Source: Pseudomonas syringae CC1557
GTDB taxonomy: Bacteria > Pseudomonadota > Gammaproteobacteria > Pseudomonadales > Pseudomonadaceae
Assembly: GCF_000452705.1 (NCBI RefSeq)
Contig: NZ_CP007014.1
Location: forward strand, 3,162,001 to 3,226,000
DNA: 64,000 nt
Direction of reading: 5' to 3'
The notes beneath the pieces are model-generated. The model was given only the letters and a program-made list of their open reading frames with translations. It had not been told where the DNA came from and did not search any database. A program made the translations under genes and the position numbers. Below are positions 9,208 through 27,607 of the stretch, piece by piece. The stretch's first letter is position 1, and each line of letters opens with the position of its first letter.

Positions 9208-10412
9208 GTCCTGACCCGTTCGCCGTTGCGCACGAAATGCTGCGGCGGCCTTGGATGGCAGAGGAAGTCAGCGTGCGAGATGTTGTAGCCATACGCCCCG
9301 GCCAACGGCAGCACCAGCAGATCGCCAATATTCACGTTTTTGAAGGGCTGGCGGCGACTCAGTACATCCTTGGGCGTACAAAGCTGGCCGACCACGGTGT
9401 ACGCCTGTTCCTGCGACGCAGGCTTTAGCGGCACATTCGGCACGTGGATCACCGGATGATCGTGTCCCTGTGCTACCGGCAGACGGAATTGATGAGTACC
9501 GCCCCGACAGACCAGAAAGTGCTCGCCGTGGCTGGTTTTGCTGTCCAGTACCTCAATAACGTAATACCCGCAATAGGCGCTGATGAAACGTCCCGGCTCG
9601 AAACGCAGGATCGGTGCGTCCTTCTGTTCGCCCAGGCGTTGTTCCAGATAGAGGCACAGGCGCTGCCAGTCGAACTGCTGGCTGTTCAGGTAATCAACGC
9701 CGATACCGCCGCCAACGTTGAAATGGGTCAGTTGCTCGGGATAGCGCGCCAGTGCTTTCCACGTTTGCCAGCGCTGTAGATAGAAGTCCAGCAATTGCTC
9801 ATGACGCTCGACCGACATCTGATGCGACATGGCGTGCACATGAAAGCCCTTGAGCGTCAGGTGCGAGGCATCGTCCACGCGGCGCACGGCATTGGCCAGA
9901 TCCGCTTCGTCGATGCCGAATGGCGTTGCTGTCCCGGCCATCGCCAGTTTGCTTGATTGCTGTGCAGGCAGCTGCGGGTTGATGCGGATGAACACCGGCT
10001 GCACGCGCCCGGCCTGTTCGGCCAATTGTTGCAGGCGCTCGATTTCGTTGAGGCTTTCCAGGTGAATGGCTTCGACCTTGTTCAGCAGCGCCGAGCGCAG
10101 GTCGGAATCGAGTTTGCCAGGGCCGGAAAACACATAGGGTTTGCGGGTCGGACAAGCCATTACCCGCTCGATCTCGCCGCCGGACGAGATTTCGAAGCCG
10201 CTGACCAGTGGCGCCAGGGTTTCCAGCATGAGTGCTTCGCTGTTGGCCTTGATTGCGTAGTACAGCTCGACGCCAGCGGGCAGCGCCGCCATGACCTTGC
10301 TGACATGTTCGCGCAGCGCATCCAGATCGTAGATGAACGCGGCCAGCGGGTCGCTTTCGAGCGCGCGGGCCTCCTGGATGGCGGCCAGTACCGTGTCTGG
10401 AATGTTATGCAT
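9204..10412 (-). CDS. acsE: AcsE, PLP-dependent decarboxylase of achromobactin synthesis
   Basis: Fold type III PLP decarboxylase of the Orn/DAP/Arg decarboxylase (LysA-like) family, about 402 residues. The PLP-binding lysine lies in ELYYAIKANSEALM; the phosphate-binding glycine loop is FNVGGGIGVDY; the C-terminal half has RFEPGRFISAYCGYYV. In the achromobactin pathway AcsE removes the carboxylate of O-citryl-serine to give O-citryl-ethanolamine. The frame is open to 10511, but the ATG at 10412 (MHNIPDTVLAAI) overlaps acsD by eight bases and begins at the normal family N-terminus; the upstream residues are arginine-rich read-through. Confidence 0.92.
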   Translation of the reverse strand: MHNIPDTVLAAIQEARALESDPLAAFIYDLDALREHVSKVMAALPAGVELYYAIKANSEALMLETLAPLVSGFEISSGGEIERVMACPTRKPYVFSGPGKLDSDLRSALLNKVEAIHLESLNEIERLQQLAEQAGRVQPVFIRINPQLPAQQSSKLAMAGTATPFGIDEADLANAVRRVDDASHLTLKGFHVHAMSHQMSVERHEQLLDFYLQRWQTWKALARYPEQLTHFNVGGGIGVDYLNSQQFDWQRLCLYLEQRLGEQKDAPILRFEPGRFISAYCGYYVIEVLDSKTSHGEHFLVCRGGTHQFRLPVAQGHDHPVIHVPNVPLKPASQEQAYTVVGQLCTPKDVLSRRQPFKNVNIGDLLVLPLAGAYGYNISHADFLCHPRPPQHFVRNGERVRT

Positions 10413-14108: not shown

Positions 14109-16511
14109 TCAGAAACCGATGGTTGCTGACAGCAGGTAGGTCCTCGGGGTCGCCAGCGTCAAGCCGGGCTCGCTGTCATCCGAGGCTCCGGCGGAGGCCC
14201 AGTAACGCTTGTCCATGACGTTTTCGATATTAGCTCGCAGTGTGATGTCCTTCTGGTCGACCTTGAAGGCGTAACGTGCACCCACATCGAAACGCTCGGA
14301 AGAGTCGATACTTTTGCTGTTGGCCTGATCCAGATACTGCGAACTGGTGTAGATGCCCCGCCCGGTCAGGGTCAGGCCCTTGACCTGCGGCACGTCCCAT
14401 TCGGCACCCAGGTTGACGTTGTATTCGGGCGTGGCAGGTGCACGGTTGCCATCGAACTGACCGTTGACGGTATTGGTCAGCTTGCTGTCGATGTACATCA
14501 CCCCGCCCAGCAGGCGGAAGCCTTTGAGGGGTTCGCCGAACATGGTCAGCTCGGCACCGTCATTCTGACGTTTGCCATTCGGGCCGAAGACCCGCGACGT
14601 GGTATTGGTCTCGTAAGCCGGTTGCTTGATACGGAACACACTGGCGGTAAACGCATACGATCCGAGATCATACTTGGCACCGACTTCAACCTGACGACTG
14701 ACAAACGGCGGGAATATCTCGTCTTCGTTCACAGAGGTCGACGGCGCGATCTTGCCTTGGCTCAGACCTTCCATGTAGTTGGCGTACACCGAGAAGTCGT
14801 CGGTAACCTTGTACAGAATGCCACCTGAAGGCGAGACTTTCTCCTCGTCGTAAGCCGTGTCTCCCTTGACGTTGTCAGTCCAGTCATCAACCTTGACCCG
14901 CTGCCAGCGGGCACCAAGCGTCAGCAGCAGGCGGTCATCGAAGAAGCCCATGGTATCGGTCAAGGCCACACCGCTGAAACGGTTTTCGGTATAGACCTTG
15001 GAGTCAGATCGAGTCGGATTCGAGGGGGTCGGCGTCTCGATCGGGTCGTACAGGTTGCTCGGCGAGGAGGCATAGCGTGCGCCGCCATTCTCGAAGTCCA
15101 TATAGAAGTAGCTGGCAGCGAGATTGACCTCGTGACTGACCGGCCCGGTATGAAACCAGTTGCGCACCCCGACGTTGGCAGTCCGGACATTTTCGTCACG
15201 GGTGAAGTCGCGTGGCTGTACGCTGAAATCGCCCGCATCGTTGGTCACCGACACCGCATGGCGCAGGAAATCATGGTTGCTTTTCCGCGCACCGACACCG
15301 CCATAGAGCATGACCGAGTCATTGACGTCGTACTCGGCATTCACCGCACCGAAGGTGTCCCGGGTGCGCGCCTTGCTCCAGGCCTGCGCATAGTTGTCGC
15401 GCACATCGTTGGCATTGGGTACTTTGGCATTGGCGCCGACCTGCACGCGCTCCTGCGGTGCGTCGGTGTCACGTTCGGTGTGACCTATATCGGTCGACAG
15501 GCGCAAACGCTCGCCGCGAAAATCCAGGCCAAGCACGGCCATATCGCGATCAACGCTCTGATGGTCCCACTCGGTATCGCCAGACTGCTTCACGCCGTTG
15601 AAACGAATACCGAATTTGTCGTCTTCACCAAACCGGCGAGCCACATCGACTGCGGCACCGACCTGCCCCTTGGAGGCATAGCTGGTGGTGAATTCGGTGA
15701 TGGGCTTGTCGGTCGCCCGTTTCGGCACCACGTTGATCCCGCCGCCGACACTGCCGCGCGGCGAGATGCCGTTGATCATCTGGCTCGGCCCCTTGAGGAT
15801 GTCGACCCGCTCGGCCATTTCCATATCGATGGTGTAGGTAGGCAGAATGCCGTAAAGACCGTTGTAGGAAACGTCACTGTTGAACAGGCTGAAACCACGA
15901 ATGGTGAACTGTTCATAACGCCCGCCCGCCGGGTTGGTGGAGCGCACCGACGGATCACTGGCAATCAAGTCGCCCAACGTGCGGGCCTGCTGGTTTTTCA
16001 CCGCATCCTTGGTGTAGGTGGTCATGCTGAACGGCGTTTCCATGAAATCCCGCGCGCCGAGCATGCCTTGCGAGCCTTTGCGCGCAACCTGACCGCCTGC
16101 ATATTCCTGACCGTCGGTGGAGCCGCCGTCGCCGACAATCGACGTCGGCGCCAGCTGCATGCTCGTGCTTTGAACAGCAGGAATCAGCGTGTACGCCTGA
16201 TCGCCAACGGATACCAGTTGCAGACCGGAGCCCTGCAACAGTCGCGCAAAGCCTTCTTCGACTGCAAAGTCGCCCGACAGCCCGGCGCTGTTGCGTCCAT
16301 TCACCAGCGCAGGGTCTACCGACAGGTTGACGCCGGCCTGCCCGGCAAACCGGGTCAACGCTGCACTCAGGGTGCCAGCCGGTACTTCATAGGCGCGTCT
16401 GGTCGCGGTGTCGGCCCAACTGGTCGAGATGAACAGCGGACTGGAGCTCAGGGTCAGCAACAGACTGAAATGCAAAAGCGGACGTAAACGATGGGGAGAA
16501 ACTGCAGACAT
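14109..16511 (-). CDS. acr: Acr, TonB-dependent achromobactin receptor with signalling domain
   Basis: Outer-membrane ferric-siderophore receptor of 800 residues. It begins with an export signal (LLLTLSSSPLFISTSWA), then a secretin/TonB short N-terminal domain of about 70 residues (VPAGTLSAALTRFAGQAGVN through LVSVGDQAYTL), a plug domain with TLGDLIASDPSVR and YEQFTIRGFSLF, and a long barrel ending in the aromatic LLSATIGF. The signalling domain fits control by the neighbouring sigma/anti-sigma pair. It is most like the FpvA/FhuE/FoxA-type ferric-siderophore receptors. The start gives a normal signal peptide. The ligand is inferred from the adjacent acs/cbr genes. Confidence 0.9.
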   Translation of the reverse strand: MSAVSPHRLRPLLHFSLLLTLSSSPLFISTSWADTATRRAYEVPAGTLSAALTRFAGQAGVNLSVDPALVNGRNSAGLSGDFAVEEGFARLLQGSGLQLVSVGDQAYTLIPAVQSTSMQLAPTSIVGDGGSTDGQEYAGGQVARKGSQGMLGARDFMETPFSMTTYTKDAVKNQQARTLGDLIASDPSVRSTNPAGGRYEQFTIRGFSLFNSDVSYNGLYGILPTYTIDMEMAERVDILKGPSQMINGISPRGSVGGGINVVPKRATDKPITEFTTSYASKGQVGAAVDVARRFGEDDKFGIRFNGVKQSGDTEWDHQSVDRDMAVLGLDFRGERLRLSTDIGHTERDTDAPQERVQVGANAKVPNANDVRDNYAQAWSKARTRDTFGAVNAEYDVNDSVMLYGGVGARKSNHDFLRHAVSVTNDAGDFSVQPRDFTRDENVRTANVGVRNWFHTGPVSHEVNLAASYFYMDFENGGARYASSPSNLYDPIETPTPSNPTRSDSKVYTENRFSGVALTDTMGFFDDRLLLTLGARWQRVKVDDWTDNVKGDTAYDEEKVSPSGGILYKVTDDFSVYANYMEGLSQGKIAPSTSVNEDEIFPPFVSRQVEVGAKYDLGSYAFTASVFRIKQPAYETNTTSRVFGPNGKRQNDGAELTMFGEPLKGFRLLGGVMYIDSKLTNTVNGQFDGNRAPATPEYNVNLGAEWDVPQVKGLTLTGRGIYTSSQYLDQANSKSIDSSERFDVGARYAFKVDQKDITLRANIENVMDKRYWASAGASDDSEPGLTLATPRTYLLSATIGF

Positions 16512-16579
16512 AAAGGGAAGCTCTCGTAATTTTGTTCACTACCTGTAATGACCAGTGAGACGAAAAAAAGGGACAGGCT

Positions 16580-17548
16580 TCACGCGTTATTTTTTTGTGG
16601 TGTGTTTTTGCGAGGGGCCAGAGTGACCCAATAGCGGGTACGCATGTGGATCTCTACCGGCAGACTGGCGGCCAGCAGCGACAGGACCCGATCAGTGTTA
16701 TCGAGCTGAAAACTGCCGGTTATCCGCAAGGCTTCAAGCTCGTGTTCCCAGCGCAGCAGACCGGGGCGGTATCGGCTGAGTTCGCGCAGAAAAGTGCCCA
16801 GCGGCTGGTTCTGCGCAGTCAGCACGCCGTCACGCCAGCCGGGCAATTGCGCGTCGAAGGCCGTAACCGGTCCTGCGCCGCTTCGTTGCAGACTGATCTG
16901 CTGGTGCGCCTGCACGACCAGCGCAGAGCCTCGCAACGGATGGACCTGTACCGAACCGCTGACCACCGAGACCCGGCAGTCGCTCTCGTTAAGCCGCACA
17001 CAAACTTCACTCTGACTGACCACAATGCGCCCGTAAGGGCCGTCGATGGTCAACGGCGCGCTGCCCGGCACTTTGAGCGCGATCTCTCCGCGCACCAGCG
17101 TTATCTGTCGGGAACCCAGATCGACGTTGACAGCACTGTCGGTGTTCAATTGCAGGGCGCTGCCATCGGCCAGTGTCAGGCGCCGGTGTTCGCCGACGGC
17201 GGTGTGCAGGTCGGCACGCCAGACCTCCAGCGGCAACTGACGCCCCAATAGCCAGACCGCCGGAGCCAGCGCGGCAAAGCCGAATGCCCGTTTCAACGCG
17301 GCGCGGCGAGCCTGGTCAGGACGGTCCAGCGTCGCCATTGCCAGATTGGCGGGCAAGGCCGAAAAACGCTGGCGCAGTTGCTGGGCCTTCTGCCAGGCGC
17401 GCTCGTTGCCAGCCGCACTGTCGCGCCAGTGCTGAAGCATGGCGTGATCTTCATCGCTGGCACCACCGGACTCCAGCAGCGCCAGCCATTGTGCAGCTCT
17501 GCGGACCACCTCGCGCTCTTCGTTCGAGGGTGCCGAACGAATCACCAA
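16580..17548 (-). CDS. FecR-type anti-sigma/regulator
   Basis: A 322-residue membrane regulator of the FecR family. It has the usual N-terminal cytoplasmic DUF4880 segment (EEREVVRRAAQWLALLESGG, then WRDSAAGNERAWQKAQQLRQ), one likely membrane helix around residues 88-103 (AFGFAALAPAVWLLG), and a periplasmic FecR domain (HTAVGEHRRLTLADGSALQL, LDLGSRQITLVRGEIALKV-like core). It would receive the signal from the receptor's N-terminal domain and control the sigma factor encoded just upstream, with which it overlaps by seven bases. The receptor gene follows after 68 bases. Confidence 0.9.
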   Translation of the reverse strand: MVIRSAPSNEEREVVRRAAQWLALLESGGASDEDHAMLQHWRDSAAGNERAWQKAQQLRQRFSALPANLAMATLDRPDQARRAALKRAFGFAALAPAVWLLGRQLPLEVWRADLHTAVGEHRRLTLADGSALQLNTDSAVNVDLGSRQITLVRGEIALKVPGSAPLTIDGPYGRIVVSQSEVCVRLNESDCRVSVVSGSVQVHPLRGSALVVQAHQQISLQRSGAGPVTAFDAQLPGWRDGVLTAQNQPLGTFLRELSRYRPGLLRWEHELEALRITGSFQLDNTDRVLSLLAASLPVEIHMRTRYWVTLAPRKNTPQKNNA

Positions 17549-18051
17549 TCCACCAACAGGCAGTGCTCATAGGCTTGTGCCATATAGCGTTTGACGGTGC
17601 GTTCGGAAACCTGCAAGCGCTGCGCAATGTCGCGATATCCCAGGCCTTCGAGCTGGCTCCAGAGAAACGACCGGCGTACCGGTGCAGGCAGACCGTCCAG
17701 CAACTCATCGAGCGCCTGAAGGGTTTCCAGCAGCAACCAGCGTTGTTCGGGAGACGGCACGCTGTCCTCAGGCAACTGGGCCAGCGCCTCAAGATAAGCC
17801 TGTTCAAGACTGCGGCGCGTGTAGAAATTGCTGAGCAGGCGCTTACCCACGGTCAGCAGATACGCCCGTGGCTCCTGCATGTCGGCGATCTGTTGCGAGC
17901 TCGACAGCACGCGTAAAAAGGTATCCTGACTCAGGTCAGCGGCATCCCAGGCATTGCCCATACGCTTGCGCAGCCAGTTTTCAAGCCAGCCGTGATGATC
18001 GCGGTACAGGGAATGCAGGGTCTGCGGAGGTAGGGTCGCTGTGTCAATCAT
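17542..18051 (-). CDS. FecI-type ECF sigma factor
   Basis: Extracytoplasmic-function sigma factor of about 169 residues. Region 2 contains AWDAADLSQDTFLRVLSS and region 4 the helix-turn-helix GLGYRDIAQRLQVSERTVKRYMAQAY. The frame is open to 18081, but that extension would run into the Fur box; the ATG at 18051 (MIDTATLPPQTLHSLY) is the better start. It probably directs transcription of acr and perhaps the acs operon when ferric achromobactin binds the receptor, under control of the FecR-like protein. Confidence 0.9.
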   Translation of the reverse strand: MIDTATLPPQTLHSLYRDHHGWLENWLRKRMGNAWDAADLSQDTFLRVLSSSQQIADMQEPRAYLLTVGKRLLSNFYTRRSLEQAYLEALAQLPEDSVPSPEQRWLLLETLQALDELLDGLPAPVRRSFLWSQLEGLGYRDIAQRLQVSERTVKRYMAQAYEHCLLVDW

Positions 18052-18080
18052 GACAAGAGCCTTGAGCGATGGATGCGCCA

Positions 18081-18099
18081 AATGAGACTGATTCTAATT
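18081..18099 (-). promoter_or_regulatory. Fur box upstream of the FecI-type sigma gene
   Basis: AATGAGACTGATTCTAATT is a near-palindrome that closely fits the Pseudomonas Fur-box form AATGAGAATGATTCTCATT. It ends 30 bases before the sigma-factor start, so Fur with iron would shut off the regulator and through it the receptor. A second, weaker Fur-like site lies before acsF. Confidence 0.75.
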
Positions 18100-18291: not shown

Positions 18292-19467
18292 TCAAACCCT
18301 GCGCGCAAAGCCGACTTGTGCACGCACGGGACACCTGCGCAACACGCCCACCAACAGCAGCGCTATCACTGAAAACCAAGCACTCACCAGCAGAACCGGC
18401 TGGGCGTTGTCGCCTGCAATCCATTGCGACGCCAGCAGCGGTCCAAACGCACAGCCCAGCAATTGCATGCCGGGGATAAGCCCGGCGATTCTTCCGGATG
18501 GGTCGATCTGCAATGCAATGCGCACCTGAAAAGGCGTCAGCATCAGATAGACCAGCGCGAACAAGCTGCACAGCCCGAGGAATACCGTTACACCCTGATC
18601 AGCCGCCACATACATACCTAGCGCAATGCTGGCGAGCAGGAGTGCGACAACTGCCAGCATCGAATAGTCAGGAACTCTGCGTACCAGCAAAACCCCCAGG
18701 CATCCGCTCACCACCTGCATGAACAGCATTGCCGAAACCAACAGCTGCGCCGCTTGAGGGGCAAGACCGGCATGGGTTCCCAATGGCTCCAGATACGCCC
18801 AAAGCGCGCCGATAGCCGACAGTTGCAGGAATACCAGCATCAACAGCAACACTTGCTTGAAACTCCAGCGGAAATCCGACGCATCGGTTTGTTTGTCTGG
18901 TTCGCGCGCCAGCCGTTTCGGCAGCCAGGCCACTAACAGCACTGAAACCGCCGTCAGTCCGCCCAGAAACACGAAGCCGGCATAAACGCTCTGGCCGGGC
19001 AATACCCAGAACGCCAGCGCTGCCGCTATCAGAGCCTGCGCCAGTGTCTGGACCACCATGAACACGCCCGCCACCCGGTCCGGCGCAGGCCCCTGAACGA
19101 TCAGGCTCACTGCACCCCATAGCAACAGCCCCTCCGCGAGCCCCGCCAGCGCCCTGGCGGCAGTCAAAGGACCATCGCCAGTGACATTGGCCGTCAGCAG
19201 GTCCATCCCGGCCGCCGAAAAAATAGCGATGACGGTGAGCAAACGCAGGTTCAGCCTTGATCGCAGCAGGTCGCCAAGCACCACGCCCAGTCCAAGTGCG
19301 ACGATTTCCCCCATCGCGACGAGCCCGACGCCTTCCAGTGAGACGTGACCTTGCGCGAGCAACTCACCCAACAGCAGCGGTTGCAGGCCCACCATCAGCA
19401 CCGCGACCGAGCCCAGGGCCAGTGCGGCGCACAGATGCCTGCGAGTTACAACGGAAGACGTTTGCAT
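18292..19467 (-). CDS. MFS transporter ending the uncharacterised operon
   Basis: A 12-helix major facilitator protein of about 391 residues. The frame is open to 19530, but the ATG at 19467 (MQTSSVVTRRHLCAALALGS) gives a normal MFS N-terminus. Hydrophobic segments alternate throughout; a motif-A-like loop is GDLLRSRLNLRLLTVIAIF, with a further conserved part AARALAGLAEGLLLWGA. It lies 22 bases after the aldolase-fold gene and is the last gene of the operon, so it probably moves the pathway's substrate or product. Direction and substrate cannot be read from sequence. It ends about 190 bases before the achromobactin Fur box. Confidence 0.82.
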   Translation of the reverse strand: MQTSSVVTRRHLCAALALGSVAVLMVGLQPLLLGELLAQGHVSLEGVGLVAMGEIVALGLGVVLGDLLRSRLNLRLLTVIAIFSAAGMDLLTANVTGDGPLTAARALAGLAEGLLLWGAVSLIVQGPAPDRVAGVFMVVQTLAQALIAAALAFWVLPGQSVYAGFVFLGGLTAVSVLLVAWLPKRLAREPDKQTDASDFRWSFKQVLLLMLVFLQLSAIGALWAYLEPLGTHAGLAPQAAQLLVSAMLFMQVVSGCLGVLLVRRVPDYSMLAVVALLLASIALGMYVAADQGVTVFLGLCSLFALVYLMLTPFQVRIALQIDPSGRIAGLIPGMQLLGCAFGPLLASQWIAGDNAQPVLLVSAWFSVIALLLVGVLRRCPVRAQVGFARRV

Positions 19468-19489
19468 GCCATGCGCCTCTTCGGAAGTC

Positions 19490-20110
19490 TCAATAACCGC
19501 GGGTTTCCGGCGGAATCCGGCCATCGGCAAAACACAGTGCCGCCCGCTTTTCGTCTTTCATCAGCCTCCCGTTTGCCACCAGCACCACCCACCATGGCAG
19601 TAACGTGAGTGGTTTACCGCAGGCCCTGGCCAGGGTGTAGGCCTTGGCACATTTTTCAAACAGCTCCGCGTTGAGTGCCATGCGAGCGCCAGTAGTCCCC
19701 ATGATGACTGGCGTGCCATCGATCAGCGCGCCATTTCCGCCACGCTTCAAGGTATTCACCAAGGGCTGATCCTGTTTGCCGGGCGTGCCCATATGACCGA
19801 TATGACGCGCTTGTTCATCAAAGAGCATCGGCATGACACCGCCAAAATCCACCAGACTTTTTGCGAACGTTCCGCCGCCTACCAGAATGGCGCCTACGTC
19901 CATACGTGCCCTGTAAATAGAAGCATGAGGCTGACTGCCCTCCACGGAGGAAGCGGACCAATCGACCGCCTGCGGTGCCAGGTCATCCAGTTTTCCCAGC
20001 CACATGCCCTGCTCGCCCGGCAAACGCAGGGAAATGCTGCTGTGTGAATCGACCTGACCTATCAGGCGTTCACGCAGGTCAAACCATTGCTGTCGAAGTA
20101 GATCGCGCAT
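19490..20110 (-). CDS. Class II aldolase/adducin-fold protein lacking metal ligands
   Basis: About 206 residues from the ATG at 20110 (MRDLLRQQWFDLRERL); the extra 22 codons upstream are probably not translated. The overall pattern fits a class II aldolase/adducin domain: DSHSSISLRLPGEQGMWLG resembles the glycine loop and YRARMDVGAILVGGGTFAKS occupies the place of the zinc-binding strand. The His-x-His of true aldolases (IHTHQP in the sister gene at 21599-22276) is replaced by VGGGTF, and the Asn-His-Gly motif by a region reading MGTTGARM. It is therefore unlikely to do metal-dependent aldol cleavage; it may bind a ligand or partner the active aldolase. Ten bases separate it from the aminotransferase gene. 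Confidence 0.7.
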   Translation of the reverse strand: MRDLLRQQWFDLRERLIGQVDSHSSISLRLPGEQGMWLGKLDDLAPQAVDWSASSVEGSQPHASIYRARMDVGAILVGGGTFAKSLVDFGGVMPMLFDEQARHIGHMGTPGKQDQPLVNTLKRGGNGALIDGTPVIMGTTGARMALNAELFEKCAKAYTLARACGKPLTLLPWWVVLVANGRLMKDEKRAALCFADGRIPPETRGY

Positions 20111-20120
20111 CACGCCCTCC

Positions 20121-21602
20121 TCACACCAGTTGAAATACAGCGTCGAAGCGTTCGAGGGCGTCATCGATGACCTCATCGGTGTCCGCCAGGCTGGTGTATA
20201 TCCGGCTCCCCGCCAGGGTGATCAGGCCATGAGCGGTATACGCAGCGCCCATCTCTTCCATCATGTGTTTGCGGGTCTTGGCTTCGTTGCGTGCGCGCAA
20301 CAGCTTCAGCGGGTTGCTGGTGTCGAGCAGCAATACACCGGAGGTCTGCAAATGCACGATGGAGCCCATGTTGTAAGCCACATAGGGCAAACCGCGTCGA
20401 TTGATGATTTCCTCCAGCCCGGCGCGCATGCGGTCGCCTGCCCTGCCCGCCAGTGCCGGTGCGTCCAGACGACGTGCTTCAAGCAGCGCGTAATACCCCG
20501 CAACGCATGACAGCGGGTTGGCCGACAGTGTCCCGCCGACGAACGCCCGCCGTGACGATGTACCAATGCCACCGGCAAGCAGTTGCATGACGTCTCGACG
20601 TCCGCCAATCGCGCCAGCCATGGGGTAACCACCAGTCAGGCATTTACCCAGCACAGTGATATCGGGCATGACATTGAAGTACGCCTGCGCGCCGCCCAGC
20701 CCCGCACGAAACCCGGTGACCACTTCATCGAAGATCAGCAGCGTGTCGAACTCGTTGCACAGTGCGCGCAGCTGGCGGTTGAAGTCAGCATGTACCGGAC
20801 GGGTACCGCTTTCCGGACCGAAGGGTTCGACCATCACCGCTGCGGTACCGCCTCGCAGGCGATTGATCTGCAACCGGCGACGCAAGGCGTCCAGATTATT
20901 GGGAGGGCTTTCCTGTGTGTTCGCCGTGGCGCCTCGCGGAATACCCAAGGCTTCCATACGACCGGTTCCCGGCAAACGCATGCCGTAGACAAGCTGATCG
21001 CTCCAGCCGTGATAAGCCCCGCCGATCTTGATCACCCACTTCTTGCGGGTATACGCACGCGCCAGGCGCACCGCAGCCATTACCGCTTCGGTGCCAGAAC
21101 CCAACAAGCGCACCATGTCGATACCCGGCATCAACTCGCACACCAGTTCAGCCAGCTTGACCTCGTACTCATGCAGCAGCCCGGTTACCGGCCCGCACTC
21201 GTCAAGAATGCGATTGACCTGCTCGCGGATCGCCGGATGGTTCGAGCCCAGCAAGGTCGGGCCGCCCGCCTGTAGAAAGTCGGTGTAACGATTGCCGTCG
21301 ACATCCGTCAAATGCGCACCCCTGGCCTGGGAAAAGGCCAGCGGAAACGGGTAATTGAATGCAAGGTTGTGTTGCACACCTCCCGGTATGACCTTCTTCG
21401 CAGCTTCGGACAGGCGCTTTGAACCCTGACAACGCTCATCGAAATAGCCCATGACCTTGCTCATCGCATCGCGCTTGATCGGGCGGATGGGCTGCTTCAC
21501 CAGCGCGTCGAAACGACGGTAGAGCAATTCGACGTCAGGCCACTGCGAGACGGCTGAAGTCGGGACCGGAGGCAGGCTGGCAAGATCAAGAGGTTTGTTC
21601 AT
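20121..21602 (-). CDS. Glutamate-1-semialdehyde-type class III aminotransferase
   Basis: A PLP-dependent aminotransferase of about 493 residues, closest in pattern to glutamate-1-semialdehyde 2,1-aminomutase and its relatives. Landmarks are KKVIPGGVQHNLAFNYPFP, LLGSGTEAVMAAVRLARAYT, KIGGAYHGWSDQLVYG, LLIFDEVVTGFRAGLGGAQ and ITVLGKCLTGGYPMAGAIGG with the catalytic lysine. It carries about 60 residues ahead of the typical family start. Since hemL-type enzymes of haem synthesis are shorter and stand apart from sugar genes, a role in transaminating an aldehyde or ketone from the neighbouring aldolase is more likely. The ATG at 21602 overlaps the aldolase stop as ATGA. Confidence 0.85.
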   Translation of the reverse strand: MNKPLDLASLPPVPTSAVSQWPDVELLYRRFDALVKQPIRPIKRDAMSKVMGYFDERCQGSKRLSEAAKKVIPGGVQHNLAFNYPFPLAFSQARGAHLTDVDGNRYTDFLQAGGPTLLGSNHPAIREQVNRILDECGPVTGLLHEYEVKLAELVCELMPGIDMVRLLGSGTEAVMAAVRLARAYTRKKWVIKIGGAYHGWSDQLVYGMRLPGTGRMEALGIPRGATANTQESPPNNLDALRRRLQINRLRGGTAAVMVEPFGPESGTRPVHADFNRQLRALCNEFDTLLIFDEVVTGFRAGLGGAQAYFNVMPDITVLGKCLTGGYPMAGAIGGRRDVMQLLAGGIGTSSRRAFVGGTLSANPLSCVAGYYALLEARRLDAPALAGRAGDRMRAGLEEIINRRGLPYVAYNMGSIVHLQTSGVLLLDTSNPLKLLRARNEAKTRKHMMEEMGAAYTAHGLITLAGSRIYTSLADTDEVIDDALERFDAVFQLV

Positions 21603-22276
21603 GGGTGGGTCTCCGAGAAGGTCTGAGGACTGAGTGCGTGCGGGCTGGAAAGCGCCTTGATCAGGCGGGCTACTGCGGCGCTGGACTCCGGTTTGCTGGA
21701 GGCATTGGCCTTGATCTGATTGACCAGATGGTCGCGACAAAACTTTTCCAGGTCTTCCAGTCGCGCCAGCGTGGTTTCTATGTCCGGACCGCAACACAGC
21801 ACGCCGTGGTTGCGCATCAGATAGGCGTTGTGGTCCGGGCGGATGGTCTTCTCCAGTTTGCCGGCCAGCCAGCCGGAGCCGGACGGTGCGTAACCCACCA
21901 GCGGAACGCGTTTACCCAGCGATGCCCATAACGGTGGGTATGGCACTTCCAGTGGTTTACCGAACAATGTGCATGCGCTGGCCAGTGGTTGATGGGTATG
22001 GATACTGCAATTCACATCGGGGCGGCAGCGCAGGACTCGCGCATGCAACTCGCTCTCGACCGAGGGCGAGCGCTCTCCCGAGAGCTGTTTGAGGTCCACC
22101 AGCCGTAACACGCAGACATCTTCGGCACGCATGCTGAAATAATCGGTGGCGGACGGGGTGACCGCGATGTGCTGCGCGTCGATACGCAGTGCCAGGTTGC
22201 CGCCGGTGGCGGCAAAGAAGCCACGGCGTGACAGATGCCGCGACAGTGCGACGATCTGCTGTTGAACAGAACTCAT
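21599..22276 (-). CDS. Class II (zinc) aldolase, fuculose-phosphate type
   Basis: A 225-residue class II aldolase/adducin-family enzyme with all expected active-site features: the phosphate/glycine loop FFAATGGNLALRI, a catalytic Glu followed by His-Ala in SVESELHARVLR, the zinc pair in SIHTHQPLAS and the third zinc ligand in LMRNHGVLCCG. Such enzymes split or form sugar phosphates such as fuculose- or ribulose-1-phosphate, and some relatives are dehydratases (MtnB) that give methylthio-ketopentyl phosphates. It overlaps the kinase gene upstream and the aminotransferase gene downstream by four bases each, so the three are probably made together. Confidence 0.88.
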   Translation of the reverse strand: MSSVQQQIVALSRHLSRRGFFAATGGNLALRIDAQHIAVTPSATDYFSMRAEDVCVLRLVDLKQLSGERSPSVESELHARVLRCRPDVNCSIHTHQPLASACTLFGKPLEVPYPPLWASLGKRVPLVGYAPSGSGWLAGKLEKTIRPDHNAYLMRNHGVLCCGPDIETTLARLEDLEKFCRDHLVNQIKANASSKPESSAAVARLIKALSSPHALSPQTFSETHP

Positions 22277-23901
22277 GATGTCGTCTCCTGTGATGGGTTC
22301 AATCTGCGATACAGCGGTGCCAGGCGCTTGCGAACTTCCTTGAACGTGGCGAAGCGGTCGTCATACAGGCGACGGGTTATCGTGGACGGCTCGTACAGCC
22401 GATGCGGTCGTTGCAGCGCCGGAAGGTCGGAGAACTGCAGTTTTTCCAGCGCGACGGCGGCGATCAGGGCCGCGCCACGGGCATTGGTCTGGATCGGGTT
22501 ATGCGGTTGCTGGATCACCCGCCCGCAGACATCCGCCATGATCTGGCACCACACATCCGATTGCGCACCGCCGCCGGTGGCCACGATTACGCCGCTGGAC
22601 TGGCCGATGAACTGCGAGAACGGTTCGAGCATCCAGCGCGTGTTGTGTGCAACGCCTTCCATGAAGGCGCGGATGATGTCTTCCCGGGAATGTTCGAGTT
22701 TCAGGTTGAACAGGCCCGCGCGAAGGCTGGGATCGCCAATCGGCGAACGCTCGCCGCACAGCCATGGCGTGTAGATCAGACCTCGCGAGCCAGGCGGCAC
22801 GCGGGCGGCAATCCGGTCGAGCAACGCGTAGACATCCGGTTGCTGTTCATCGCTGAGCAGTTCGTCCGGGTGGTACAACACCTTGTCGCGCAAAAACGAC
22901 AGATTCGCGCCCGCTGCCGATTGCATGGCCATCGCCAGGTAGCGGCCCTTGACCGCGCTGGGCACTGCCGCAATGTGGTGACGAACACTGGATTTCTTGA
23001 ACGGCACATGCGCACCGACCCAGGATGAAGTACCCAGATAAAGGTGCGGCGCAAAATCGCTCACTGTTGCGCCTACCGCCACTGCCGAGGTGTCCACGGC
23101 ACCTGCCACCACTGGCGTCGAGTGCGGCAGCCCCAGTGCATCGGCCAGTTCCGGCTGCAACGTCCCGATGACTTCGGTAGACCCCACCAGTTCGGGCAGT
23201 TTGCCTGCATCGATGCCCAGCGCCCTGATCAGGCTGTCGTCGTAACGGATGCGGTGCGGGTCGCGGTTATCGGTGATCCAGGCGGTCAGCATCGAGTCGC
23301 CGGTGGCACAATAACGACCTGACAGGCGCAGGTTCATGTAGTCCAGTACGTTGAGGAATTTGTGGGTCCTCTCATACCTTGCCGGATCGTGATCGAGGAT
23401 GTAGGCCATGTGCCCCGCCGAGTCCATGCCTGACAGTGAGGCCACGCCACCGGTCAGGCGCAGCGAGCGCCAGAGCTTGAGTGGTCCGTAGCCGCCCAGG
23501 TTGCACCACCCGCCGCCCATGCGCTTTTTGATGGAGTCAGCACCGCGCTTGTCCAGCCACAACAGCGCGCGCCCCAGCGCCGAGCCATTACGGTCGACGC
23601 ATACCGTGCCTTCGCTCTGAGTGGAACAACACACAGCCACCACTTGGCGTCGCCTGAGCAAATCAGCCCCCAGCAGCTCGTGGGCACCGCGCAAAAATGC
23701 ATTCCACCAGTCTTCGGGGTCCTGCTCCGCACTCAAGCCACTGACGTAAAGCGGTACGCCATGGAACGCCCAGGCCCGAATGTCACCCTCCATGGAGACC
23801 AGTGCACACTTGCAGCCAGACGTTCCGAGGTCGATGGCGAGGACGAGTTGCTCCAGACCGGTGACCGCCTCAGGCGTCCGGGAGATGAAAAGCGAAGTCA
23901 T
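22273..23901 (-). CDS. FGGY-family carbohydrate kinase
   Basis: A 542-residue sugar kinase of the FGGY family (xylulokinase, ribulokinase, AI-2 kinase group). The N-terminal phosphate loop is LAIDLGTSGCKCALVS; other landmarks are VCCSTQSEGTVCVD, ALLWLDKRGADSIK, VVAGAVDTSAVAVGATV, YLGTSSWVGAH and the C-terminal VIVATGGGAQSDVWCQIMAD with KLQFSDLPAL close to the end. It would phosphorylate the substrate of the aldolase encoded next (ATGA overlap). It begins 10 bases after the porin gene. The sugar or polyol used is unknown; the residue pattern does not let me choose between the subfamilies. Confidence 0.88.
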   Translation of the reverse strand: MTSLFISRTPEAVTGLEQLVLAIDLGTSGCKCALVSMEGDIRAWAFHGVPLYVSGLSAEQDPEDWWNAFLRGAHELLGADLLRRRQVVAVCCSTQSEGTVCVDRNGSALGRALLWLDKRGADSIKKRMGGGWCNLGGYGPLKLWRSLRLTGGVASLSGMDSAGHMAYILDHDPARYERTHKFLNVLDYMNLRLSGRYCATGDSMLTAWITDNRDPHRIRYDDSLIRALGIDAGKLPELVGSTEVIGTLQPELADALGLPHSTPVVAGAVDTSAVAVGATVSDFAPHLYLGTSSWVGAHVPFKKSSVRHHIAAVPSAVKGRYLAMAMQSAAGANLSFLRDKVLYHPDELLSDEQQPDVYALLDRIAARVPPGSRGLIYTPWLCGERSPIGDPSLRAGLFNLKLEHSREDIIRAFMEGVAHNTRWMLEPFSQFIGQSSGVIVATGGGAQSDVWCQIMADVCGRVIQQPHNPIQTNARGAALIAAVALEKLQFSDLPALQRPHRLYEPSTITRRLYDDRFATFKEVRKRLAPLYRRLNPSQETTS

Positions 23902-23911
23902 AAAGGTCTAC

Positions 23912-24793
23912 TCAGAATGTGCGGGAAATCGACGCTACCCAGCGATTGTCATCCGTGGCCCGCACATGCCCGTCGTCTTCGGCCATGTACAGTTCGCGGG
24001 CCCGGGTCTTGGTGGTCACCCAGTCAAGCCCCCAGTCAAAACCCCACCAGCGATGCACCAGGCCTGCGCCATAGTCGGCAAAGTCGGCTTCCGAGAAGTT
24101 TTCGATCTGTTGATAGCCGGCATGCACCTTCAGGTTGGTGTTGATGCCCAGCGCGTACTTGTAGTCCAGGTCGTAAAGCAGGCTGCCGCGCGAGTTACGG
24201 TCGCCCTTGGCGTAGCATTCCAGGCCTTTGGTCGGATCGTCGCGGAACTGCAGTTGCGCGCCGCACACCCCGCCACTATTGGCCCCCCGGTAGTTTTTCG
24301 AGAGCACTCTGGCGACTCGGCCTTCGAGCGCGCCATAACCTATTTCGAGCACGGCAAACTGACTGTTGTAATGGGTGGAGTGCTCTTCACCCGGCGTGAA
24401 GGTCTGGAAATCGAAGCTATTCGGCGCCTTGAATTGCGCGCCAGGGAACATCTCTGCAGCAAGCCCCACACCGTAGTGCCAGGCGTCTGGATCACCAAAG
24501 CGATAGCCGCCGGCAAGCAGCACGCCTGCGCCATCGCCGTCGAGAAACTGCTTCTTGCTGACCGTGGTAAATTCGGCGAGCGCCACCAGGCCTGATTCAT
24601 GAGCGACCTGAAGGGTGACTTTGGCACCGGGGCGATTCAACGAATCGGAGATACCCCGGGTACGAATGTCTGAACTGGCCTTGGCCGTGACATCCACCGC
24701 ATAGCTGGACATTTCATCTGCCAGTGCCAGCGTCGGACAGGCTATGGAGCACAGGGTGACCGCCAGTGCACAACGGGTTGTATGAGTACGCAT
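23912..24793 (-). CDS. TorF-type putative outer-membrane porin
   Basis: A 293-residue exported protein with an N-terminal signal (CALAVTLCSIACPTLALA) and a body of alternating short strands ending in the aromatic RWVASISRTF, as for outer-membrane barrels. The early SSDIRTRGISDSLNRPG matches the TorF family signature, in which a strand after the signal reads similarly. It likely lets the operon's substrate or product across the outer membrane. It lies 28 bases after the DUF2147 gene and 10 before the kinase gene. Family call moderate; function is inference. Confidence 0.75.
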   Translation of the reverse strand: MRTHTTRCALAVTLCSIACPTLALADEMSSYAVDVTAKASSDIRTRGISDSLNRPGAKVTLQVAHESGLVALAEFTTVSKKQFLDGDGAGVLLAGGYRFGDPDAWHYGVGLAAEMFPGAQFKAPNSFDFQTFTPGEEHSTHYNSQFAVLEIGYGALEGRVARVLSKNYRGANSGGVCGAQLQFRDDPTKGLECYAKGDRNSRGSLLYDLDYKYALGINTNLKVHAGYQQIENFSEADFADYGAGLVHRWWGFDWGLDWVTTKTRARELYMAEDDGHVRATDDNRWVASISRTF

Positions 24794-24821
24794 GATTCTC
24801 TCCCACGCTAAAGGGCCGGAC

Positions 24822-25247
24822 TTACAACGTGCAAACCGGAGCAGGAGGCAGTGTGTCGATACGTTCGAACTGCTCTGTCTTGCCGAGTATCTCGGTGCCG
24901 ACGAAAGCCCTCACATTGAGGCGACCGTCCTTGACGCGAACAGCGCCCTTGTATTTTTTCTGGTCACGCGGGTCATACACCCAGCCATCGCGCCAGGCAT
25001 CCTTGTCATAGCGGGTCAGCTGCAGGATTTGCACACCGCAGTCGCTGGACGCCGAGGTAACATCCTTGACCCAGACCACCTGTCCGCAGATGGCGCCTGC
25101 CTGATCCTTGCAATCGTCCAGTCTGACCACTGCATCTTTTTCCGCAGTCAGCCAAAGGCCCTTGGCCTCCAGAGGACCTGTTGCAGCATGAATGCCGGTG
25201 GAGCACATCAGAACCGAGGAGAAGAAAAGCCATTGCTGTACGTTCAT
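24822..25247 (-). CDS. Exported DUF2147-domain protein
   Basis: A small secreted protein of 141 residues, first gene of the operon. It has a short export signal (MNVQQWLFFSSVLMCSTGIHA) and a DUF2147 pattern: EAKGLWLTAEKDAVVRLDDC, GAICGQVVWVKDV, then DQKKYKGAVRVKDGRLNVRA and EILGKTEQFERI. Members are periplasmic or secreted beta-barrel proteins, about 120 residues long when mature, of unknown role. Four cysteines remain in the mature part, allowing disulphides. Its gene faces the TetR gene across 151 bases. Confidence 0.78.
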   Translation of the reverse strand: MNVQQWLFFSSVLMCSTGIHAATGPLEAKGLWLTAEKDAVVRLDDCKDQAGAICGQVVWVKDVTSASSDCGVQILQLTRYDKDAWRDGWVYDPRDQKKYKGAVRVKDGRLNVRAFVGTEILGKTEQFERIDTLPPAPVCTL

Positions 25248-25301: not shown

Positions 25302-25338
25302 ATGATAGTCATCGCTACACAGTAGTTATAACTATCAT
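25302..25338. promoter_or_regulatory. Inverted repeat, candidate TetR operator
   Basis: ATGATAGT at 25302-25309 is repeated inverted as ACTATCAT at 25331-25338; extended, the two halves read ATGATAGTCAT and, on the other strand, ATGATAGTTAT. A 10-base palindrome AGTTATAACT (25324-25333) overlaps the second half. It sits in the divergent gap between the DUF2147 operon and the TetR gene, where a regulator could act on both. Confidence 0.5.
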
Positions 25339-25398: not shown

Positions 25399-26079
25399 AT
25401 GGCCAGGCTGAAAACTGAAACAGATCCAGCACAGATCGCGGGAAAAACCGCAGAGCGCAAGAAACTGCCCGCGCAGCAACGCGCCACTGAAACCTACGAG
25501 CGCATTCTCGTGGCCACCGCACAGACCCTGTGTGACGTCGGAGTGGAGCGCTTGTCCACTAATCTGGTCTGCGAGCGTGCAGGTCTTACACCGCCTGCGC
25601 TGTATCGCTATTTCCCCAATAAATACGCGCTGTTGACGGTGCTGGGTGAGAGGCTGCTGGAAAAGCAGAACGAGCGGATCGATTACTGGATCACGGCGGA
25701 GCTGCTCACCGGCACGCCGCAGGCTTTGGAAAAGGCGCTTGCCGATCTGATTCTGGACACTTATGAGGTCACCGAGGCAACGCTGGGCGGCATGTGGACG
25801 CTCAAGGCGTTAAGGGCCGTTCCGGCTTTGGAGCACGTGAGGCTCGACTCGCACCGCCGGGTGGCCACCGCTCAGGCTGCAATCATGACCAGTGCGTTCC
25901 CTGAGGCTGATCCCCAGCGCATCGCCATGGTTGCGCGAGTCGCGGTAGAAATGATTCACGCGACAATCGAGCTGCTGTTCGACGAGCCCATGGCCCCTGA
26001 ACAGGTCTGCGCAATGGTGGCGGCGATGATCGTCAGCCATCTGGATCGTTTGAGCCCGCTGCCTGAAGCCGGCGATTAA
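25399..26079 (+). CDS. TetR-family transcriptional regulator
   Basis: A 226-residue repressor-type regulator. The N-terminal DNA-binding domain is clear: TYERILVATAQTLCDVGVERLSTNLVCERAGLT with the recognition helix PPALYRYFPNKYALLTVLGE. The C-terminal ligand domain is divergent, as is normal. The ATG at 25399 follows a modest purine-rich stretch. It is followed after about 90 bases by an aldehyde dehydrogenase gene on the same strand, and faces a seven-gene operon, so it may control one or both in response to an aromatic aldehyde or related ligand (inference). Confidence 0.88.
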   Translation: MARLKTETDPAQIAGKTAERKKLPAQQRATETYERILVATAQTLCDVGVERLSTNLVCERAGLTPPALYRYFPNKYALLTVLGERLLEKQNERIDYWITAELLTGTPQALEKALADLILDTYEVTEATLGGMWTLKALRAVPALEHVRLDSHRRVATAQAAIMTSAFPEADPQRIAMVARVAVEMIHATIELLFDEPMAPEQVCAMVAAMIVSHLDRLSPLPEAGD

Positions 26080-26170: not shown

Positions 26171-27607
26171 ATGAACCAGCAAGCACAGATTCAGCCTCCC
26201 ACGACGTCTTCCGCTGCGGCGCTCACCGAGCTGTTGGCAGCTCAGCAGGCGGCGGTTCGCGTTCAGGGCGTGCCCGGCTATGCACAACGGATTGCCAGCC
26301 TCGACGCCGTTTTGCGCATGGTAAGCAGCAATCAGGACCGCTTGCTTGAGGCCGTCTGTGCAGACTTCGGCAACCGCTCCTTCGCCGAAACCAGGCTTGG
26401 CGAGTTGATGCCGATCATTAACGGCATCAAGCACATCCGCTCGCACCTGAAAGCCTGGATGCGTCCTGCACGGCGCAAGGCAGGGATCGTGTTCAGACCT
26501 GCGAGTGCCAGGGTGATCTACCAGCCGCTGGGTGTGGTCGGCATTCTTGCGCCCTGGAACTACCCGCTGACATTGACCCTGGTGCCGTTGATCGAAGCAC
26601 TGGCGGCTGGCAATCGGGTGATGATCAAACCGTCGGAACTGACACCGAGAACCTCCGAACTGCTCAGGCAACTGCTCGGCGAAACGTTCCCGGCAGACCA
26701 GGTGACTGTGGTCACCGGCGACGCCAGGCTGGCCAGCCAGTTCAGCGAGCTGCCCTTCGACCACCTGCTGTTCACCGGTTCGACCCAGGTAGGCCGTCAG
26801 GTCATGGCCGCCGCAGCGCGCAACCTGACGCCAGTGACCCTGGAACTGGGAGGCAAGTCACCGGTAGTGGTCTGCGCCGACTTTCCGCTCAAGAAGGCCG
26901 CGCGAATCATCGCGATCGGCAAGCTGTTCAATGCCGGCCAGACCTGCGTAGCCCCGGATTATGTACTGGTGCCGCGCAACCTCGTGGACCACTTCGCCAG
27001 CGAGTGGCTGGCGGCCGCGAAAAAGCTCTACCCGACACTGGACGGCAATCCGGACTACACCTCGATCATTTCGCCACGTCATTACGATCGACTGTTGGCC
27101 ATGGTCAACCAGGCTGTCGCAGCCGGTGCACGAGTCTGGCAGCACGATGCGCTGCCAGCGAAAAACGATCGCAGGATCGCGCCAGCAGCGTTTACTCAAG
27201 TGCCACTGACTGCGGACATCATGCAGGAAGAGATTTTTGGCCCGTTACTGCCCATCCTCGCTTACGACACACTGGATGAAGCCATCGCCTTCATCAACGC
27301 CCGGCCGACACCGCTTGCCCTGTACTGTTTTTCCAATCAGCAGGCGTCCGTGGACCATGTAGTGAACCGGACGCGCTCTGGCGGCGTAACCGTCAATGGC
27401 ACCATGCTGCACGCCACTCAGGATGATCTGCCTTTTGGCGGCGTCGGAGAAAGTGGCACCGGTGCTTATCACGGTTACGAAGGCTTCGTCCGTTTATCCC
27501 ATGCACGCAGTGTGCTCACACTGAGTCGCTTCAACCTGTCCGATAAAGTCTCGGCACCCTACGGGCGGCTGACGCGGCTAGTGACACGGCTAATGCTCGG
27601 TAAATAA
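26171..27607 (+). CDS. calB: Coniferyl-aldehyde-type dehydrogenase
   Basis: An NAD(P)-dependent aldehyde dehydrogenase of 478 residues. The cofactor-binding GVVGILAPWNYPL, glycine turn FTGSTQVGRQVM, catalytic Glu in TLELGGKSPVVV and catalytic Cys in FNAGQTCVAPDYVLVP are all present. The short length and FNAGQTCVAPDY pattern fit coniferyl aldehyde dehydrogenases, which oxidise lignin-derived aldehydes to ferulate; fatty-aldehyde relatives share much of this. I chose the ATG at 26171 (MNQQAQIQPP) over the open frame from 26108, which has no family similarity. The symbol is tentative. Confidence 0.85.
   Translation: MNQQAQIQPPTTSSAAALTELLAAQQAAVRVQGVPGYAQRIASLDAVLRMVSSNQDRLLEAVCADFGNRSFAETRLGELMPIINGIKHIRSHLKAWMRPARRKAGIVFRPASARVIYQPLGVVGILAPWNYPLTLTLVPLIEALAAGNRVMIKPSELTPRTSELLRQLLGETFPADQVTVVTGDARLASQFSELPFDHLLFTGSTQVGRQVMAAAARNLTPVTLELGGKSPVVVCADFPLKKAARIIAIGKLFNAGQTCVAPDYVLVPRNLVDHFASEWLAAAKKLYPTLDGNPDYTSIISPRHYDRLLAMVNQAVAAGARVWQHDALPAKNDRRIAPAAFTQVPLTADIMQEEIFGPLLPILAYDTLDEAIAFINARPTPLALYCFSNQQASVDHVVNRTRSGGVTVNGTMLHATQDDLPFGGVGESGTGAYHGYEGFVRLSHARSVLTLSRFNLSDKVSAPYGRLTRLVTRLMLGK

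Follow-up and report, generated by a model that had tools for sequence, protein, structure and literature searches.

The window examined here, a stretch of 64,000 nucleotides from the chromosome of Pseudomonas syringae CC1557 (NZ_CP007014.1, positions 3,162,001 to 3,226,000), contains a run of seven genes on the minus strand which probably specify the breakdown of sphingoid bases by sugar-type chemistry. In the order of transcription these encode an exported DUF2147 protein (24822–25247) [Pfam DUF2147, E 6.9e-18], a TorF-family outer-membrane protein (23912–24793) [Pfam Gcw_chp; TIGR02001, 48.1 bits against a cut-off of 47.15], an FGGY kinase (22273–23901) [Pfam FGGY_N and FGGY_C], a class II aldolase here called ALD1 (21599–22276) [Pfam Aldolase_II], a class III aminotransferase of the glutamate-1-semialdehyde type (20121–21602) [Pfam Aminotran_3], a degenerate aldolase-fold protein, ALD2 (19490–20110), for which the FucA fold is seen in a predicted model, and an MFS transporter (18292–19467) [Pfam MFS_1, 37.9 bits]. 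The first two genes are separated by 28 bases and the TorF and kinase genes by 10; there are 4-base overlaps at the kinase/ALD1 and ALD1/aminotransferase junctions, followed by gaps of 10 bases before ALD2 and 22 before the transporter gene. The original prediction, made without database searches, had described this run with the same families, 4-base overlaps and gaps of 10–28 bases, and both the coordinates and the Pfam and NCBIfam assignments confirm it.

An operator-like inverted repeat, to which no strand is assigned, was located by a site scan at 25302–25338, between the DUF2147 gene and a divergent plus-strand gene for a TetR-family regulator (25399–26079) [Pfam TetR_N]. The latter is followed on the plus strand by a gene for a class-3 aldehyde dehydrogenase (ALDH; 26171–27607) [Pfam Aldedh], the solved relatives of which include a steroid aldehyde dehydrogenase [7.6e-100] and a fatty aldehyde dehydrogenase [4qgk, 3.3e-92]. 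Because the spacing is short and a single conserved operator-like site lies upstream, we infer that the seven genes are co-transcribed as one operon. As predicted, the operon has its own outer-membrane and inner-membrane proteins (TorF and MFS), the former being the probable entry channel.

Distribution of the gene set

Of a sample of 398 genomes of the genus, with that of CC1557 among them, 25 encode ALD2 (E 0.001) and 24 encode the aminotransferase (E 1e-150), and the two sets of genomes are identical except for one, G229. Since both proteins occupy the same few genomes bar this one, the gene arrangement is not due to chance. Twelve of the genomes possess all seven genes and an ALD2 at least 57% identical to that of the window; the other 13 are of a divergent type, with an ALD2 40–43% identical, and in the nine regions of this type that were read (L045–L053) only the core of kinase, ALD1, aminotransferase and ALD2 is present, L045 excepted. 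The nearest named relative of ALD2 belongs to Pseudomonas viridiflava (94% identity). L045 is the region from G229, which alone among the 25 ALD2-positive genomes lacks the aminotransferase at E 1e-150; it carries an ALD1–ALD2 pair alone (8449–9710), with no kinase or aminotransferase homolog in the 19 kb read. In two relatives close to CC1557, the aminotransferase gene of L034 (G313) and the kinase gene of L035 (G094) each match as two pieces in different frames and may be broken or mis-sequenced.

A class-wide search of 369 genomes (E 1e-130) matched the genome of CC1557 only. A profile scan with the aminotransferase through genomes of 84,980 species, each represented once, gave at least 580 relatives, of which the loci of the best 80 were analyzed (53 outside the Chloroflexi and 27 within). 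They come from the Proteobacteria, Acidobacteria, Spirochaetes and Chloroflexi, and their aminotransferases match at 64–96% identity. The original prediction had proposed checking the co-occurrence of the kinase, both aldolases and the aminotransferase; they lie near one another in all 53 of the non-Chloroflexi loci. Of the 80 loci, 71 combine the kinase, the aldolase and the aminotransferase. All nine misses are Chloroflexi, eight of which show no kinase match in the vicinity and one no ALD1, and several of these contigs end close by. The kinase was counted in 19 Chloroflexi loci, though L105, L124, L127 and L129 match at just 30–35% identity. ALD2 is found in none of the 27 Chloroflexi loci, which have a single aldolase.

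A plasmid of Butyrivibrio carries the kinase, aldolase and aminotransferase genes, and some 5 kb away a gene for an ALDH. In Burkholderia ambifaria the gene set resides on plasmid NZ_CP152372.1 (L135) and is probably mobile, since this plasmid is typed as conjugative, IS5 transposase genes lie among and beside the set, and a Tn3-family transposase gene adjoins it.

Neighboring genes in related loci

Conserved neighbors within 10.5 kb of the aminotransferase gene were clustered, and annotation covered part of them. The neighbor counts refer to loci L055–L134 only; the query genes were picked after some of the loci had been viewed, and several contigs end near the core. Among the 53 non-Chloroflexi loci the accessory genes of the operon recur for DUF2147 (27), TorF (26), MFS (33), TetR (31) and ALDH (28). 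Other recurring neighbors specify regulators, short-chain dehydrogenases/reductases (SDRs), further ALDHs, outer-membrane proteins of the FadL, DUF1302 and TonB types, and a ceramidase-family protein. A row of three genes also recurs, for an Ala_racemase_N protein, an ALO-type FAD oxidase and a cytochrome c, which fits the published SphD, SphC and SphB of P. aeruginosa (PMC3900636, PMC11893366; these and all papers below are cited from portions of their text).

At least two of the three sphBCD homologs lie near the core in 11 of the 53 loci (7 genus labels), a ceramidase-family gene in 7 (3 genus labels) and a FadL-like gene in 3, so that 16 loci have at least one of these markers. The arrangement varies with the lineage (the gene starts are rough in all the loci that follow). 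Albitalea (L071) has a co-directional run in the order SphC-SphD-DUF2147-TorF-kinase-ALD1-aminotransferase-ALD2-MFS, whose genes overlap or are separated by short gaps. The co-directional run of Marinobacterium (L072) and of Pseudoduganella (L085) reads DUF2147-TorF-kinase-ALD1-aminotransferase-ALD2-MFS-ALDH-SphB-SphC-SphD, and Rhodoferax (L073) has much the same order plus one dehydrogenase, its gaps reaching 175 bases. Roseateles (L079) and a Pseudomonas (L088) have their sph genes facing the core. The SphC of L088 shares 74% identity, across 99% of its length, with a cluster of P. aeruginosa FAD-linked oxidoreductases with 957 members, presumably PA5327, and begins with a twin-arginine start; SphC has been published as Tat-secreted (PMC11893366).

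In a whole-genome check of Pseudomonas, 5 of 25 core-positive genomes had the ceramidase, against 1 of 50 that are core-negative; in each of those five its gene is 6.6–6.8 kb from that of the aminotransferase. SphC (1e-60) was found in 9 of 25 core-positive versus 4 of 25 core-negative genomes. In seven genomes of the divergent type its sole match is 3.0–4.1 kb from the aminotransferase gene, one of these having an inner stop; in two of the seven-gene type SphC is present but away from the operon. The ceramidase-like proteins exceed the Pfam cut-off (369 bits for L108, and likewise the six from Pseudomonas). The original prediction had assumed a sugar or polyol as substrate; the sphingosine-metabolism, ceramidase-family and FadL-type genes which accompany the set in other genomes point instead to the breakdown of a long-chain amino-polyol lipid.

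In several Pseudomonas relatives (L039, L041–L043 and L058–L062) an SphD-like Ala_racemase_N gene lies between the TetR and ALDH genes, whereas the window showed no match to this gene. A flavin-containing monooxygenase gene occurs near the core in both Pseudomonas types (L039–L041, L058, L059, L061 and L062; L047, L050–L053, L088, L090 and L094–L096), mostly alongside an SDR and an AraC-type regulator. A gene beside the spirochaete core, suspected of specifying serine palmitoyltransferase, scores as valine-pyruvate transaminase, and the SDR adjoining ALD2 in L099 matches 3-ketodihydrosphingosine reductase too weakly (91 against 400 bits) to be given weight.

A probable divided aldolase

ALD1 possesses the catalytic Glu and three zinc-binding His in 103 of 103 aligned sequences (this set and the 76 ALD2 sequences below contain loci fetched twice; the sets of 55 and 27 are without repeats). 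The phosphate-binding residues of FucA are Asn29, Thr43, Gly44, Ser71 and Ser72 (PMC11841055). At the corresponding places ALD1 has Asn for Asn29 and Ser for Thr43 in all 103 sequences, and Ser (92) or Thr (11) at 71, while place 44 is mostly Ala and place 72 Val or Ile, where FucA has Gly44 and Ser72. Its best NCBIfam model is that for ribulose-1-phosphate aldolase, at 92.5 bits far below the cut-off of 300. Membership of the methionine salvage pathway (MtnB) was rejected on scores below the cut-offs (84.8 against 226 and 83.5 against 137.05), as were the L-fucose and rhamnose pathways, for which the model scores are below cut-off and there is no isomerase.

ALD2 had been described as a degenerate aldolase-fold protein. 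The fold is borne out by the predicted model (mean pLDDT 89.6), which takes the fold of E. coli FucA with a TM-score of 0.74; the protein is probably not a leftover but an aldolase subunit. None of the 76 ALD2 rows has a His at the first zinc column, and the FucA-type complement of one Glu and three His is lacking, so that ALD2 by itself is not classed as an aldolase. No Pfam or NCBIfam model matched ALD2 at E 0.001, although a few of its database relatives bear an Aldolase_II domain.

The motif FDEQ is found in 55 of 55 ALD2 proteins, in none of the 55 paired ALD1 proteins and in 26 of 27 single aldolases; the latter comprise 26 from Chloroflexi and the one from Butyrivibrio, which is that without FDEQ. 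The zinc motif HTH, on the other hand, is present in all 55 paired ALD1 proteins and all 27 single aldolases; L055 alone among ALD2 proteins contains this tripeptide. A C-terminal Tyr is found in all 55 ALD2 proteins. ALD2 (76 sequences) has a median score of 59.3 bits with the single-aldolase profile versus 2.3 with that of paired ALD1. When the single aldolase of L106 is aligned with E. coli FucA, the Asp of FDEQ falls opposite Tyr113; when it is aligned with three other solved aldolases, 4c25, 4c24 and 6btd, a one-residue gap sets the Glu of FDEQ opposite that place (positions counted by eye). The active site of FucA is formed by residues from two adjacent subunits (PMC11274987), Tyr113 being contributed by the neighboring one, as is the acid Glu171 of rhamnulose-1-phosphate aldolase (PMC11841055, PMC6202814).

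ALD1 and ALD2 thus look like halves of one enzyme. Because FDEQ and HTH are split between ALD2 and ALD1 and are both present in the single aldolases, it seems that an ancestral aldolase was duplicated, one copy losing the neighbor-side and the other the zinc-side residues, while the undivided form persists in Chloroflexi. The two chains would be expected to form a mixed ALD1–ALD2 tetramer having half as many active sites as is usual. If this is true, the pair provides a clean natural case of an active site shared out between two genes by complementary loss.

Aminotransferase and kinase

The aminotransferase scores below the HemL cut-offs (TIGR00713, 280.8 against 527.3 bits; NF000818, 295.4 against 398), and its identity as the glutamate-1-semialdehyde aminomutase of the haem pathway was dropped on this ground. 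Guanitoxin-type biosynthesis was discarded as well (GntE, 216.2 against 525). The lysine motif, as a strict pattern, was matched in 86 of 103 sequences. Among the matches in the PDB is the aminopentol aminotransferase 6hbs [2.9e-26], which we take to be FumI. The kinase is best matched by the XylB model, at 235 bits below its cut-off of 380.25.

The removal of a C2 amine that is proposed below has a precedent in FumI, a class III aminotransferase which moves the C2 amine of hydrolyzed fumonisin B1, a sphingoid-like amine, to pyruvate (PMC2933618).

Proposed pathway

We propose, with a probability of roughly 0.6, that the operon breaks down sphingoid bases in the manner of sugars and that phytosphingosine (4-hydroxysphinganine) is its likeliest substrate; that the substrate is some sphingoid base we regard as highly probable. 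The base would be imported by the TorF and MFS proteins. The aminotransferase would then strip the C2 amine to give 1,3,4-trihydroxyoctadecan-2-one, an alkyl-tailed ketose, and the FGGY kinase would phosphorylate C1 to give an analog of D-ribulose-1-phosphate, although the order of these two steps could be swapped. Cleavage of C3–C4 by the two-protein class II aldolase would yield dihydroxyacetone phosphate (DHAP) and pentadecanal (C15). To this reaction ALD1 would presumably contribute the zinc and the catalytic Glu, and ALD2, from the neighboring subunit, the catalytic acid (FDEQ) and a C-terminal tail. Finally, the class-3 ALDH would oxidize the fatty aldehyde to a fatty acid for beta-oxidation. 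The family assignments uphold the kinase, aldol-type and transamination chemistry of the original prediction; the direction which it gave, with the amine added last, gives way to one in which the aminotransferase more likely removes the amine first, yielding a ketose-like substrate for the kinase and aldolase. The substrate, the order of the steps, the heteromer and the repression considered below are our reading of what the sequence provides, namely the gene set, its conservation and linkage, the division of residues and the operator-like site.

Phytosphingosine has the configuration 2S,3S,4R, and D-ribulose is 3R,4R. With CIP ranking coded by hand, transamination of the 2S,3S,4R base gives the 3R,4R ketone; the products of E. 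coli FucA are likewise of 3R,4R configuration (PMC11274987). Since a C4 hydroxyl is required for a cut between C3 and C4, phytosphingosine would be preferred over sphingosine and sphinganine.

A number of observations weigh against this proposal. None of the three lipid markers is nearby in 37 of the 53 non-Chloroflexi and all 27 Chloroflexi loci. The ceramidase was not found in 20 of the 25 core-positive Pseudomonas genomes nor SphC in 16 of them, including 5 of the 12 of divergent type with the whole core. The genome of CC1557 itself is without this ceramidase family and without SphC at 1e-60; the sphingolipid link therefore stems from relatives, and here the operon would act on free bases or on ones released by other enzymes. 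SphC-like proteins outside Pseudomonas are only 36–48% identical to that of L088, and the ceramidase-like proteins, at 512 and 268 bits, score far below the NCBIfam neutral-ceramidase cut-off of 1200. L102 has a LacI-like neighbor, itself below cut-off. The choice of phytosphingosine among sphingoid bases is founded on chemistry. To our knowledge FGGY kinases act only on small polyols and sugars. Lastly, survival of P. syringae pv. tomato is reduced by more than 50% at 25 µM and more than 95% at 50 µM phytosphingosine (PMC8776846).

Alternative explanations

It is possible, if rather unlikely, that the operon handles sphingoid bases generally, sphingosine and sphinganine included, or mainly serves to detoxify them. 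The aldolase pair would in that event carry out some other class II reaction, such as an isomerization or dehydration, on a substrate without the C4 hydroxyl, a notion to which we give similarly little credence. The class II aldolase fold does also hold dehydratases, epimerases and decarboxylases, models of which were matched, and sphBCD matter alike for growth of P. aeruginosa with sphingosine, sphinganine and phytosphingosine, with sphBC important for all three (PMC11893366). Yet a kinase followed by a fuculose-type aldolase is the known way to cut a 3,4-dihydroxy-2-ketone-1-phosphate (PMC6079011), and the residues which ALD1 retains throughout are the retro-aldol Glu and the zinc ligands.

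The uptake and catabolism of a sugar or polyol, or its conversion to an amino-sugar or amino-acid-like product, agrees with enzyme families that are typical of sugar metabolism, and two Acidobacteria loci share a glycosidase-like neighbor, a further point against a lipid substrate. We nevertheless consider it improbable: no sugar isomerase recurs among the neighbors annotated, which are part of the total, and the recurrent neighbors that were counted are sphBCD, ceramidase, ALDH, SDR, MFS, regulators and outer-membrane proteins. Still further down the scale we would place the idea that the targets are not natural sphingoid bases but toxins, either fumonisin-like or of some other long-chain amino-polyol kind. 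FumI does provide a class III aminotransferase for hydrolyzed fumonisin B1, but that compound is a 2-amino-3,5,10,14,15-pentol and so has no C1 hydroxyl for the kinase (PMC2933618). Furthermore, the PDB matches place glutamate-1-semialdehyde aminomutases much closer to the aminotransferase than FumI, which also counts against deamination of a sphingoid base, and the ceramidase-family neighbors favor sphingolipids.

Comparison with known systems

The proposed degradation of phytosphingosine has its nearest counterpart in the sphBCD/SphR/cerN regulon of P. aeruginosa, which is likewise devoted to sphingoid-base metabolism; some relatives have homologs of SphB, SphC and SphD and a ceramidase-family gene close to the core or even within its run. 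That regulon employs a periplasmic oxidase, a cytochrome c and a threonine-aldolase-like protein, whereas the operon has an aminotransferase, a kinase and a class II aldolase pair; its regulator is of the AraC type and that adjacent to the operon of the TetR type, and two of its components, SphC and this ceramidase, are those not found in CC1557. The L-fucose and 5-deoxyribose (drd) pathways resemble the operon in using a kinase and then a class II aldolase to form DHAP and an aldehyde (PMC6079011). They have an isomerase, however, while the operon has none and its aminotransferase would make the ketose instead; the drd kinase is of the methylthioribose-kinase type and not FGGY, and the aldolase of the operon is split over two genes.

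The eukaryotic sphingosine-1-phosphate lyase route also comprises a kinase, a C–C cleavage and a fatty aldehyde dehydrogenase, but its PLP lyase cuts C2–C3 to release phosphoethanolamine, whereas the metal aldolase of the operon would cut C3–C4 to release DHAP after loss of the amine. In fumonisin degradation by Sphingopyxis a class III aminotransferase, FumI, deaminates a long-chain amino-polyol at C2, as is proposed for that of the operon; it belongs to another subfamily, and no kinase or aldolase step is seen for fumonisin in the portion of PMC2933618 consulted. The alpha/beta heterotetramer of adducin (PMC12599920) unites paralogous chains of class II aldolase fold, as the tetramer that we envisage would. 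Unlike the aldolase pair adducin is not an enzyme, and the ALD1 chain keeps a full zinc site.

The original prediction knew of no characterized system with this gene set. In the open-access literature neither the set nor an aminotransferase-kinase-aldolase route for sphingoid bases was found among the matches listed, although accounts under other gene names could escape such a search; in the portion of PMC13293705 seen, a study of Cupriavidus and sphingosine, the words aldolase, aminotransferase and kinase are absent. What we rate as new here is that familiar enzyme families, and a familiar kind of pathway, would be put to use on a lipid, together with an unusual divided aldolase. On the fuller claim we are evenly poised, namely that this is an undescribed route in at least four bacterial phyla, in which a sphingolipid backbone would be converted to a ketose phosphate and cut by a heteromeric aldolase split by complementary loss, and by which plant-associated pseudomonads would disarm phytosphingosine.

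The Discussion of PMC11893366 holds that further, sphBC-independent systems for sphingoid bases must exist in pseudomonads, and the operon is a concrete candidate for one. Phytosphingosine kills P. syringae, its level climbs in Arabidopsis upon recognition of an avirulence protein, and phytosphingosine phosphate at 100 µM does not reduce growth of P. syringae (PMC8776846). Bacterial breakdown of phytosphingosine, if true, would therefore bear on plant immunity: plant-associated pseudomonads would both disarm an antimicrobial compound and gain carbon from it.

Regulation

Of the 104 sequences scanned (L034–L136 and the window), 27 contain the core of the operator-like repeat with no more than 4 mismatches. 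These are the window, all 23 loci of L034–L044 and L055–L066, and L071, L078 and L085; at this threshold it was not matched in other TetR-bearing lineages, such as L067, L070, L072 and L073. In the whole genome of CC1557 a single such site was matched when up to 3 mismatches were allowed, whereas the reversed control gave no site. We assume that the TetR protein binds this repeat and would repress the operon from the predicted site at 25302–25338. Albitalea (L071) has its site, at 3 mismatches, upstream of the SphC gene, in the interval that separates it from the TetR gene, which again joins the sph genes to the core gene set.

Adjoining genes

Directly downstream of the operon (14109–18081) are genes which by resemblance specify a TonB-dependent receptor, a FecR-like regulator and a FecI-like sigma factor. 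A tie between the operon and these iron genes was considered and dropped, a FecI-like gene being near the core in just 4 of the 53 non-Chloroflexi loci, all four from Pseudomonas. On the other side the window contains a LuxR-type regulator gene at 27876 and, from 28654 to 55949, several very long minus-strand frames, three of them of 1802–2367 amino acids, which one translation suggests are of the nonribosomal peptide synthetase type; a stretch related to these frames is found at 56633.

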